63,089 nucleotides of DNA, taken from the IMG/VR virus record IMGVR_UViG_3300009703_000017, positions 1 to 63,089 of that record. One strand, given 5' to 3'. Made by a program: the position numbers and the translations under genes. The DNA comes from a virus. Shown in pieces: positions 54,286-58,950 of this stretch. The stretch's first letter is position 1. The number at the start of each line of letters is the position of its first letter. Under the pieces are notes generated by a model, which did not search any database, was not told where the DNA came from, and saw nothing but the letters and a program-made list of their open reading frames with translations.

Positions 54286-56241
54286 ATGCCATCAACAGTA
54301 TACAAAGGTGATTTATCAGAGGTAACTTTCGGTCACGAAAGCGGAATTGTGTTAACACACGGTCATTTTACAGGCGGTCTTGGTTGGGGTCATACTACGT
54401 CAGGAAGCGTGTCTACTATCACGTTCACAGGAGCGACTGCCGGACTCTTTAGCGCCGGTCAGACTCTTGAGTATCCTGTGGGAATGCTTGTAGGTTGTAT
54501 GCTGCGCGTGCTGAGTGCTGATGGTAACAATTACGAGCCTGACGATTACACTAAAACAGGTCGCCTGTATACGATTGTAGCGAACGAAGATGCGACTATT
54601 CAGGTCACCCCTGCCCTCGCAGGTACAACAGGAAGCGCTGCTGGTGATTCTCTCGTCATTGACGCTCTCGCTTGTCCTGCCCCTGATGCTAGCGGTACTA
54701 CTTACAACTCAAATGCTGCAACAAGCGATGAAAGCGTGCTCACCGACCAATTTGTCGGTTTGGCGGCTTCTATCACGCTACCGGAGACTAAAGTTGAACT
54801 ACTCCGTAGCCATGTTGTAGGTGTAGGACGAGACGTAGTGGTACAGGTCCCTCAAAGGTTTTCCAATGAAGGAGGTTCGCTTGAGACTATGATGCACAGC
54901 GCGCGGTGGTTATACTACGCGCTTGGTAATGAGGCTACTACTGATATGACAGCATTCACCGGGGCGACGACTCTAACTGCTACCGCTAAGACTATCGCTA
55001 TGGGTGACAATTATATTGAATCCAATACTACTGTAAACAGTTTCGGAGCACTAGCGGTCGGCGATTATGTTCAAGTAGTTGATACTGACACTGCTCTAAT
55101 CCCTACCGATAGACAAGACCCAGCGGCGGGTACTACTTGGACAGGCTCAGAGACAGCATTCAGCCTCACCGAGACTAACGAAGTTCGCCGTGTTATTGCT
55201 ATTGATACGACAGTAGCGGCTGATAGCAGGATATACGTAGATGACCCGTTCAATTTTGACCATGATACAGGCAAGGTCCTGATTCATTTAGAGTTCGCTA
55301 ATGCTGCGGGTAACGGTTCGCCTGACTTTGTTACAACTGATGCTGCTTTTGGTAACATAACCAATCGCGTGTCACGCATGCTGTTCTCAGGCTGGCATAC
55401 ACCATCGTTCTCACTTGAGGCTTCTATGCGTACTCGTGATGTAGGGTCGTACAGCGGCGAGCAGACCGCGAACGTGCCCGGCGGAGCGAACGACAGTAAG
55501 CAACTGACGCGCGTTTGGAAAGGATGCAAGGTCAAGGATTGGTCGCTCACTGCTGACGCTGACGCTGAGGCAAAAATGACTATCAATTTTGATGCACTTC
55601 ACTGTTACACCGACACAGGCCGGCTGGAAACTGACGGAACTCCGGGAGACCGTTATACCGCTCATCGTATGTTTGAGAATACAGGTAGCGGGCTGAAAGA
55701 ACGCAAGGAAGCAGGTATCGCTCCTAATACTGAAAAACCGTTCATGTTCTATAACGGGTCAATTACTGCGTTCGGGCAAACTATGGCCCAAGTTACTAAC
55801 TTCAATCTAACAGGGAATAATAATACTACTACTCACTACACAGTGCGCGGTAACGATTTAGCCGAGAGCAGGGTAGCGAGTGGGCTACATGAAGGCAAAT
55901 CTAAGGAGCAAGTACCCTTTGGTGGTAGCCGTAATGCTGCCTTAATAGTTGAAGGTAAAGTAGAATACGAGTTATCAATGGGAATTATCGTGTCTGACCC
56001 GCTACTATGGCACGAGTTCCGCACTAACCGTGAACACGATTACAACGAACCTATTACACTCACTCTAACTAAAGCAGGAGCAGGCGCTAACCGTGAACAA
56101 ATAATAGTTATCATTGATGATTATATTATCACCGAAGCGCCGCTACCAATTCCCGAAGACAAAGGGGTAGTCAAGAGTGAACTGAAAATCATGCCGAAGC
56201 ACGTGAAAGTGGTAGCGCACGATACTCTATTCCATTGCTAA
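54286..56241 (+). CDS. Major tail tube protein, enlarged
   Basis: 651 aa, Thr/Gly/Ala-rich beta protein. Amino and carboxy segments look like a tail-tube fold (LHCYTDTGRLETDG; FNLTGNNNTTTHYTVRGNDL; YELSMGIIVSDPLLWHEFRT); a long insertion at about 60-330 probably projects outwards. It lies between the terminator-type gene and the tail chaperone gene, the normal place for the tube protein. Ribosome site GGGAGAGAGC before the ATG. Confidence 0.72.
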   Translation: MPSTVYKGDLSEVTFGHESGIVLTHGHFTGGLGWGHTTSGSVSTITFTGATAGLFSAGQTLEYPVGMLVGCMLRVLSADGNNYEPDDYTKTGRLYTIVANEDATIQVTPALAGTTGSAAGDSLVIDALACPAPDASGTTYNSNAATSDESVLTDQFVGLAASITLPETKVELLRSHVVGVGRDVVVQVPQRFSNEGGSLETMMHSARWLYYALGNEATTDMTAFTGATTLTATAKTIAMGDNYIESNTTVNSFGALAVGDYVQVVDTDTALIPTDRQDPAAGTTWTGSETAFSLTETNEVRRVIAIDTTVAADSRIYVDDPFNFDHDTGKVLIHLEFANAAGNGSPDFVTTDAAFGNITNRVSRMLFSGWHTPSFSLEASMRTRDVGSYSGEQTANVPGGANDSKQLTRVWKGCKVKDWSLTADADAEAKMTINFDALHCYTDTGRLETDGTPGDRYTAHRMFENTGSGLKERKEAGIAPNTEKPFMFYNGSITAFGQTMAQVTNFNLTGNNNTTTHYTVRGNDLAESRVASGLHEGKSKEQVPFGGSRNAALIVEGKVEYELSMGIIVSDPLLWHEFRTNREHDYNEPITLTLTKAGAGANREQIIVIIDDYIITEAPLPIPEDKGVVKSELKIMPKHVKVVAHDTLFHC

Positions 56242-56251
56242 GGTGAACGAA

Positions 56252-56611
56252 ATGGGCCGATTCAGATACAATCTAAGCGACCATAAGACACGCAAGGCTC
56301 ACGTAGCCGCTGTGCGCGAACAGTTCGCAGAACAAATTGCTGCAAAAAGGGCGTTAGACGAGACGTTTGACCCTGAAGCGGCTAAAATAACAGACGACCC
56401 GTTCCCTGAAGAGATAAAATCCGATTCCACCGAAGCCCCTGTTTCTGCTGATGCAGAAATGGCTGCTGAAGAGGAAACGCCGATGCCCGTGAGGAAATGC
56501 AGCGTGTGCCGAGAACCCGGTCACACGAAGCGCGATTGCCCCACGCTCGCGGCAAAATCACCCGAGGAGGGTACAGTAAGTGAGTCAAACACAGGAGACG
56601 CAGAACAGTAA
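56252..56611 (+). CDS. CCHC zinc-knuckle protein in the tail region
   Basis: 119 aa from MGRFRYNLSDHKTRKAHVAA; a GTG three codons earlier is possible. Basic helical start, acidic middle, then CSVCREPGHTKRDC, an exact C-x2-C-x4-H-x4-C zinc knuckle like those of retroviral nucleocapsids. Such knuckles bind single-stranded nucleic acid. Overlaps the chaperone gene. An RNA-binding role near a frameshift site is intriguing but unproved. Confidence 0.7.
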   Translation: MGRFRYNLSDHKTRKAHVAAVREQFAEQIAAKRALDETFDPEAAKITDDPFPEEIKSDSTEAPVSADAEMAAEEETPMPVRKCSVCREPGHTKRDCPTLAAKSPEEGTVSESNTGDAEQ

Positions 56612-56957
56612 TTATACAGTGGTCAGTGATATAAACAGCCTAATGGCGGCACGTGCGCCTAAAGAGCACGTTATACACGTTGACCCGGAGAACGAAAGTA
56701 GTATTATCAAGGTGTGGGTGAAAGACCTCACGTTCTTGAAAATGCAAGAAGCGGTCAAATCGTTCGTCAGCATATCAGCAGACGGCGGCGTAGACCTTGA
56801 CCTTGCAGGGTACTGGAAATACATGATAACCGAGTGCGTGGAGCGCACGGAACCTCAAATGAGCAAAGGGCAACTTATGGGCCTGAACGCTCATGTAGGG
56901 CAGCAACTGACAGCCCTGCTCCCTCAGCCACAGGACTTGGTGGCCGGCCCTTTGTAA
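56580..56957 (+). CDS. Tail assembly chaperone, short form
   Basis: 125 aa from GTG 56580. MSQTQETQNSNYTVVSDINS then VDPENESSIIKVWVKDLTFL and a helical part end LPQPQDLVAGPL. Placed between tube and tape-measure genes, where tailed viruses encode gpG-type chaperones that coat the tape measure. The stop follows directly on a slippery heptamer. Confidence 0.75.
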   Translation: MSQTQETQNSNYTVVSDINSLMAARAPKEHVIHVDPENESSIIKVWVKDLTFLKMQEAVKSFVSISADGGVDLDLAGYWKYMITECVERTEPQMSKGQLMGLNAHVGQQLTALLPQPQDLVAGPL

Positions 56958-57253
56958 AGTGGCCTGAAAAGGCCGAGTCCGTATACCGTTCCATGAAGAA
57001 CCCGCGAGATAATGTTAGTGCAGAGCATATCATAGATGGTATGGTCTATCTTGTAGCACGCCATTTCAAAATCAGTATGGCTGAAGCGCGCTCTATGAGC
57101 GAAGACGATTTTTCTACATCGTTCGCGTGGGCGAGTGCCGCTCAGCGCATGGAAGCGGAAGAAATGGAGAAAACGACCGGAGAGATGAAACAGAAGCAAC
57201 GTGTCGGTAAGACAGACACGGGGCAACCGTTCCCGGGTAGCACGCTGAGGTGA
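56580..57253 (+). CDS. Tail assembly chaperone, -1 frameshift fusion
   Basis: Slipping back one base at 56948-56954 joins 125 codons to the overlapping frame, continuing VKWPEKAESVYRSMKNPRDN and ending at 57253, 224 aa in all. The downstream part is helical (DDFSTSFAWASAAQRMEAEE) with a Lys/Gln tail. It has no good start of its own: the nearest ATG (56993) lacks a ribosome site. The product corresponds to gpGT of lambda-like phages. Confidence 0.75.
56948..56974 (+). promoter_or_regulatory. Programmed -1 frameshift signal
   Basis: Slippery C-CCT-TTG in frame, the zero-frame TAA next (56955), a 6-nt spacer, then GGCCT-GAAA-AGGCC, a 5-bp stem closed by a GNRA tetraloop. All three elements have the spacing expected of -1 sites. 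Confidence 0.8.
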
Positions 57254-58950
57254 AGAAAATGGCTGACAATGCAGGCGGAGCGGCAGGCCCGGGTGGTCTA
57301 ACTCAGCAGCAAGTCACTCGTATCTATGAGATGCAGCAGGGTTTTGAGACGATGGCGGCGTCTGTCGGTATTGTAGAGAGGAATATGGCTAAGATGAAGG
57401 GTGCCATACTCGGTCAACCCATCGTTAAGTTCGGCGCGCAAATCAAAGCGATGGGCGGACAAATGCTCAGGACTAACAAGGGTATATCCGAGTGGCGAAA
57501 TCTTACTAAAGAACAGAAAAAAGAAATGAAAGGTAATATGACTATCATTCAAAAATTGGTAATCCCGATGATGGCCTACACTAAAATTGGTGGGCAGATG
57601 AACAAGATAGTACAAGCGAGTAACACAGGACTCGGGCGACTCACAGCGCGCTTCTTCGGACTGTTCAGTATCTTGTTCCTCATGGTGTTCGCGTTCACTG
57701 CGATTTCTCTAGCGATTGATGGGGCTAATAGTCCGATAGCGAAAATGGCGGAAGATACACCGGTGTTATCTAACGCGATTAATGGGCTAATTTTAGTTCT
57801 GCATGGTGAAGATGGGCAGGGTGGTCTGAAAGGAGCGATGGATATTGTCATAGCGAGCGTGTTCGTGTTCGCGGCAGTATGGATAGTATTCGGTACGACT
57901 GTTGCCGCTATCACCGCCGGGGCGTTCCTCGTAATCGGTACTTTCAAGTTAGTGAAAAAGGCTACCGGTGATACCAAAATAGCGTTGCTTGCAGCGGCCG
58001 CTACTTTTACTTTAGTGGTGGGAGCGCTCATCGCATTCTTCACAAGCGCAGGTATAATGGCAGTAGCCGCTGTTACTTTACCCATCGCTCTAATTCTTGG
58101 AGCGGGTGCCATATTTTGGGCTGTCATCACAGGCAAGGCCCCGAAATGGTTAGCATGGGTGGGAATATTCATGTTGTCGTTAGCGGCTATCATTATTGGT
58201 TTCACGATTGCCGCTCCAATACTTATCGTAGCGGCGGCAATCGGTCTCGCCGTATCACTTATTGCTCTTATCATTGTGCATAGAGAAAAAATCTATAACA
58301 AAATTAAAGCGTTTGTGGCTTGGGCCAAAACGTTTTGGAAGGAGAATAAATCTAAAATTATTACAGTCGGTAAATGGTTGGTAGCGTTCCCTATAATGCT
58401 CGGTCTACTTATCGGTAAGAAAATCAAAGAGTTCCTCGTGAAAAACAAGACTCAAATCCGTACAGGATTTATGGGCATAATCGCTATGGTATTAGACAGA
58501 GCGAAATCGTTTGGCACCAAGATTGCTAAAGGTATCGCTTGGGTCACAGGTATACCCGGTAGGATGAAAGACGCTCTGCTAGCCAAAGCAGTAGAACTGT
58601 ATAATGCTCTCGCAGGTGTTCTGTCGTTCACCATACCCGCTCTAACTATCGCTGGATACGAAGTGTTCGGGGATACACCTGTAAACTTGTTACCGCAAAT
58701 CCCTGCGCTCGCTGAAGGTGGAATAGTCACAGGCCCCACTCTCGCCTTGATTGGTGAAGCAGGGCCGGAAGCGGTTATCCCGCTAAGTAAGGGTGGCGGT
58801 AACGGTATGGGTAGCACTTTCAATATCAGTATCAATGTAGGCGGAGTGACAGACAGAACAGATAAACGCGAACTCGCCATGCAGATTTCTAACGAGATTC
58901 AGAAAGAGATGCGGCGATGGGGTCGTGGTACTACAATGAGGTCGGTCTGA
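57250..58950 (+). CDS. Tail tape measure protein
   Basis: 566 aa from GTG (GTGA overlap) or ATG 57259. Three or more hydrophobic stretches between about 135 and 365 (FFGLFSILFLMVFAFTAISL; WIVFGTTVAAITAGAFLVIG). The end has ALAEGGIVTGPTLALIGEAG followed by PEAVIPL, a hallmark of tape measure carboxy ends. It sets tail length and is probably ejected into the host membrane. At 566 aa it predicts a short tail, roughly 80-90 nm at 1.5 angstrom per residue if fully helical. Confidence 0.85.
   Translation: MKKMADNAGGAAGPGGLTQQQVTRIYEMQQGFETMAASVGIVERNMAKMKGAILGQPIVKFGAQIKAMGGQMLRTNKGISEWRNLTKEQKKEMKGNMTIIQKLVIPMMAYTKIGGQMNKIVQASNTGLGRLTARFFGLFSILFLMVFAFTAISLAIDGANSPIAKMAEDTPVLSNAINGLILVLHGEDGQGGLKGAMDIVIASVFVFAAVWIVFGTTVAAITAGAFLVIGTFKLVKKATGDTKIALLAAAATFTLVVGALIAFFTSAGIMAVAAVTLPIALILGAGAIFWAVITGKAPKWLAWVGIFMLSLAAIIIGFTIAAPILIVAAAIGLAVSLIALIIVHREKIYNKIKAFVAWAKTFWKENKSKIITVGKWLVAFPIMLGLLIGKKIKEFLVKNKTQIRTGFMGIIAMVLDRAKSFGTKIAKGIAWVTGIPGRMKDALLAKAVELYNALAGVLSFTIPALTIAGYEVFGDTPVNLLPQIPALAEGGIVTGPTLALIGEAGPEAVIPLSKGGGNGMGSTFNISINVGGVTDRTDKRELAMQISNEIQKEMRRWGRGTTMRSV

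Follow-up and report, generated by a model that had tools for sequence, protein, structure and literature searches.

Probable -1 programmed ribosomal frameshifting at a conserved C_CCU_UUR slip site in the tail assembly chaperone gene of a magrovirus-like archaeal virus

Does the gene located between the tail tube and tape measure genes of an archaeal tailed virus encode one tail assembly chaperone or two? The question is raised by a stretch of viral DNA of 63,089 nucleotides (IMG/VR record IMGVR_UViG_3300009703_000017, positions 1 to 63,089; hereafter called the window), for which -1 frameshifting at the end of the chaperone gene had been proposed. The features relevant to the argument are the following.

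54286..56241, + strand, tail tube protein (PF18906, E=5.9e-11, above its cut-off)
56580..56957, + strand, 0-frame tail assembly chaperone (G part), 125 aa
56948..56954, + strand, slippery heptamer C_CCT_TTG
56954..57253, + strand, -1 frame extension (T part), 99 codons, stop TGA at 57251-57253
56955..56957, + strand, 0-frame stop TAA adjoining the heptamer; across the five-member subclade this codon is TAA, TGA or TAG
56960..56975, + strand, GNRA-capped hairpin, likely 3' stimulator
57260..58950, + strand, tape measure protein (PHROG tape-measure families, E=2.4e-7 and 4.8e-7)

The chaperone ORF starts with GTG, comprises 125 codons and closes with GGC CCT TTG TAA; the heptamer CCCTTTG is in phase with the 0 frame (C_CCT_TTG), and the stop codon lies directly 3' of it. 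As the original prediction had stated, the heptamer precedes the 0-frame stop and the overlapping -1 frame continues for 99 residues (VKWPEKAESV...PGSTLR), reaching up to the tape measure gene. The accompanying claim that this frame has no start codon is almost correct: GTG at 56834 and ATG at 56993 are present, neither with an evident ribosome-binding site, and the GTG is not conserved, since several relatives close the -1 frame 3' of it. Readthrough of the stop codon was rejected because the 0 frame closes again 12 codons later.

Among PHROG families, the 0-frame product matches 25860, a tail assembly chaperone family (E=1.7e-6). Its AlphaFold model (29 sequences, pLDDT 83) resembles viral structures that carry the tail assembly chaperone annotation; of the named ones, a protein of Haloarcula virus HHTV-2 scored best (E=2.5e-7), whereas the chaperones of Bacillus phages and Mu FS-gp41 matched more weakly. 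Fold and sequence searches against the PDB yielded no match. Given the PHROG match and the predicted fold, we assign this product to the tail assembly chaperones. Comparison of the T part with the PHROG families gave no significant match. The gene context is also as predicted, with the chaperone gene between those of the tail tube and the tape measure; the latter probably starts at ATG 57260, with GTG 57250 being a possible alternative. The product of a single small gene (56252-56611) lying between tube and chaperone contains a zinc knuckle of the CCHC type (CSVCREPGHTKRDC; PF00098 at E=5.8e-5, above cut-off), a motif that, among the scanned relatives, recurs in locus L014 only.

The assignment of the virus to archaeal hosts, likewise part of the original prediction, is borne out by its gene content. 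When the capsid and portal proteins were compared with 50,697 phage records, all matches were to archaeal viruses: HCTV-1, HCTV-5, HVTV-1 and related viruses, together with others whose assigned hosts are Methanofastidiosa and Methanomassiliicoccales. Furthermore, a contig of 106,907 bases, identical to the window where compared, carries PolB and a chaperonin most similar to the group II chaperonins (thermosomes) of archaea. PolB and a chaperonin belong to the gene set of magroviruses, which have been assigned to marine Poseidoniales and placed by the ICTV near Druskaviridae (PMC10768690, PMC12999244). Of the features by which Magrovirales are recognized, the following were found: a tailed-virus genome of 90-110 kb, PolB, a chaperonin and structural genes related to those of Druskaviridae. 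Thus, judging by the capsid and portal matches and by the PolB and thermosome genes of the longer contig, the virus is archaeal, with a gene set as in magroviruses. Nishimura et al. distinguished four clades among such viruses and reported thermosomes in a single one, with GroEL in the others (PMC5332604); GroEL is present in the one contig with an AAAAAAC site that was tested. A genome-based host search was uninformative, as its two matches were both short virus-like contigs within bacterial MAGs. Two short contigs that encode this archaeal-virus chaperone, L143 (PAUP01000059.1) and L144 (NZMJ01000011.1), are listed under Cytophagaceae and Maricaulis MAGs; they appear to be viral DNA binned in error.

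Scans of IMG/VR recovered relatives of roughly 30-71% identity, corresponding, after removal of duplicates, to 82 distinct loci in which the -1 frame extends for some 60-100 codons. All 82 contain an in-phase X_XXY_YYZ heptamer within the overlap of the two frames, which in many of them spans just 13-16 nt; about 7.9 such loci in total would be expected by chance, given a background rate of 0.0056 in-phase XXXYYYZ per codon elsewhere in chaperone-family genes, although the loci are related by descent and the counts are not independent. The slip site is CCCTTTG or CCCTTTA in 39 loci, the clade of the window, and AAAAAAC/G/A or GGGAAAC/A/G in the others. Throughout the clade of the window, the heptamer codons are frozen: the proline codon is CCT and the leucine codon TTG or TTA in 39/39 distinct members, and the position preceding the heptamer accepts several amino acids (G/N/D/T/A), yet the third base of its codon is invariably C (39/39). 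By contrast, the proline codons 7 and 9 positions upstream are CCT in only 11/39 members each, and the upstream leucine codons drift as well. Dual coding does not explain this constraint, because the -1 reading of the heptamer would remain untranslated under the slippage model. In seven loci, a -1-frame TAA or TGA directly abuts the heptamer, so that the -1 frame can be entered only at or after it. Both frames are under purifying selection; for the T part, this is shown by dN/dS values of 0.06-0.38, well below 1, in the pairs of relatives that could be scored, and conserved T-part residues recur across the clade. No member of the clade has lost the heptamer while keeping the overlap, and none of the relatives examined splits the two frames by a separate start and ribosome site.

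Taken together, the relatives, the heptamers, the frozen codons and the selected extension agree with the proposal that -1 programmed ribosomal frameshifting operates here, and we consider it very probable that the gene yields two tail assembly chaperones in this way. Most ribosomes would terminate at the TAA codon and release a G-like protein of 125 aa. A minority would be held up by the stop codon and the hairpin beyond it and slip back by one base, with tRNA-Pro and tRNA-Leu moving together on C_CCU_UUG, and would then read 99 more codons to produce a G-T fusion of 224 aa. By analogy with lambda gpG/gpGT, G might coat the tape measure, and the T part might recruit tube subunits. Against this scenario, tRNA-Leu would sit on UUU after the shift with a mismatch at the wobble position, and the combination of a stop-abutting site with a GNRA hairpin is common to five distinct members only.

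The -1 ORF could instead be made separately, through termination followed by reinitiation at a start in the new frame, such as ATG 56993 in the window or the GTGA overlap of loci L013, L016 and L018. An ATG indeed occurs at the same place in 5/5 stop-abutting loci, in three of which a GTG overlaps the TGA stop, but the corresponding codon at the window stop is GTA, not a usual start, and ATG 56993 is not preceded by an evident ribosome-binding site. Moreover, 15 members of the clade have no ATG, GTG or TTG in the -1 frame up to +60, residues encoded 5' of ATG 56993, including an invariant Trp, are conserved, and reinitiation leaves the frozen heptamer unexplained. We therefore regard this mechanism as very unlikely. 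Still less credible is a change of frame by RNA polymerase rather than the ribosome. Transcriptional slippage is conceivable for relatives with runs of at least six A residues (AAAAAAC, AAAAAAG, AAAAAAA), but the longest runs at the window site are of three (CCC, TTT), so that polymerase slippage is no ready alternative there, and the in-phase X_XXY_YYZ arrangement is the layout needed for tandem tRNA slippage. Finally, the idea that a sequencing error interrupted one continuous ORF, or that the frame has decayed (pseudogene), is refuted by the relatives: apart from the record being a metagenome assembly, nothing favours it, whereas 82 distinct loci, drawn from many assemblies, repeat the two-frame layout, purifying selection acts on both frames, and a second contig has the identical sequence.

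Under the frameshifting model, sequences flanking the heptamer are candidate stimulators. The hairpin claimed to lie 6 nt past the heptamer is present: GGCCT (56961-56965) and AGGCC (56970-56974) enclose a GAAA loop, with an additional U56960-G56975 pair, and the 60 nt 3' of the heptamer have a predicted folding energy of -14.9 kcal/mol (z = -3.03). Its conservation, however, is confined to the five-member subclade of the window, where the stem is paired in 5/5 loci, the closing pair is U-A, U-G or C-G and the loop is GAAA or GAGA. Only one of the six pairs varies among these five distinct members; this weak covariation is compatible with the structure but suggestive only. The sister subclade has a different and longer downstream structure: in the 34 loci with the stop 18 nt further on, a longer arm begins about 7 nt past the heptamer and folds well in most, and pair 30:46 changes among G-C, A-U and U-A. 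A two-helix structure drawn from single-sequence folds of this subclade is 78% paired, above slid versions of itself; relative to a shuffle control, it is higher in the percentage of paired positions and in covariation score, but not in pairs with double changes. RNAalifold recovered from the same subclade only a short inner stem, along with a pairing that involves the heptamer and is probably spurious.

On the 5' side, a Shine-Dalgarno (SD)-like element upstream of the window heptamer (predicted duplex, -10.9 kcal/mol) is not claimed here, because the CCCTTT clade overall is just slightly above control. The loci with A-rich sites, in contrast, carry a strong SD-like element upstream, with a median predicted pairing of -10.7 kcal/mol versus -3.4 kcal/mol in control stretches; in most of these loci (L038-L091), AGGAGGATGA or GGGGGATGA lies about 8 nt 5' of A_AAA_AAN. 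Strong downstream structure is also predicted for them, and the GGGAAAN loci are similar in both respects.

The slip site varies even more widely beyond the 82 loci. Through the T part, we found 37 further marine contigs (L180-L216) with the 0/-1 layout and G-rich sites, namely, GGGGGGT, GGGTTTT or GGGGATTTT, the last of which does not fit XXXYYYZ. In five relatives (L043, L047, L048, L085 and L088; three of them distinct), the same T domain is encoded in the +1/-2 frame, with GAAAAAAAGGATGAT at the junction, which may reflect a ribosomal shift of -2 on A_AAA_AAG or of +1, or else slippage of the polymerase along the run of seven A residues; a switch to -2 or +1 between clades is probable on the basis of these frames. 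We lean towards the view that a single chaperone family has kept the fusion while repeatedly swapping its slip site (CCCUUUR, AAAAAAN, GGGAAAN, GGGGGGU/GGGUUUU) and stimulators (an upstream SD-like element and hairpins that differ downstream), and that the shift itself changed in direction or step on one occasion or more (from -1 to -2 or +1); C_CCU_UUR would then be a slip class new to archaea and their viruses.

With frameshifting at this gene, the magrovirus-like tail chaperone should be annotated as two proteins, rather than as one ORF and an orphan. The approximately 80 distinct loci for which slip site, spacer and structures were compared also offer ready constructs for slippage on archaeal ribosomes, with which one could ask how these ribosomes slip, whether XXXUUUZ heptamers function on them and whether the stop codon, the hairpin or the SD-like element stimulates the shift.

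Among known systems, the same or nearly the same heptamer has been proposed for -1 shifts in giardiavirus (CCCUUUA, a case disputed in PMC8230311) and in West Nile virus WARF4 (CCCUUUG/U; PMC3574045), but these are unrelated eukaryotic RNA viruses with predicted pseudoknots. A close parallel is the conserved tail-chaperone frameshift of tailed phages, exemplified by lambda gpG/gpGT (Xu, Hendrix and Duda, 2004, as reviewed in PMC5009743), with which the window shares the position between tube and tape measure, a 0-frame chaperone with a -1 extension and an XXXYYYZ heptamer near the 0-frame stop. Unlike lambda, which uses G_GGA_AAG, the window has C_CCU_UUG, to be read by an archaeal ribosome given its archaeal virus; moreover, its stop directly abuts the heptamer, the hairpin is of the GNRA type and the T part has no PHROG match.

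The original prediction called frameshifting in archaeal viruses poorly documented, which is half right. The one demonstrated archaeal frameshift gene is fucA1 of S. solfataricus, accompanied by a few halovirus predictions (PMC8211752), and in the magrovirus papers covered here (PMC10160649, PMC5332604) no mention of frameshifting was found. Nevertheless, G/GT frameshifts were predicted in 2013 for the haloarchaeal viruses HVTV-1, HCTV-1, HCTV-2 and HCTV-5 (PMC5009743, PMC8211752), with the heptamers GGGAAAC, AAAAAAC and GGGAAAG given in PMC5009743, and also for Hardycor1, with GGGAAAT (PMC7911831); the GenBank records of HCTV-1, HCTV-2 and HCTV-5 annotate the chaperone at this locus as joined CDSs. 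The virus of the window resembles these haloarchaeal viruses in being archaeal and tailed, in the -1 direction, in its related chaperone (HCTV-2, HHTV-2) and in its capsid and portal (HCTV-1/5, HVTV-1), but its clade has CCCTTTG or CCCTTTA throughout in place of their GGGAAAC, AAAAAAC, GGGAAAG and GGGAAAT. What the sequence comparisons add to these systems is a putative class of archaeal-virus slip sites, C_CCU_UUR, retained throughout a marine clade, and apparent swaps of slip site and stimulator between clades.
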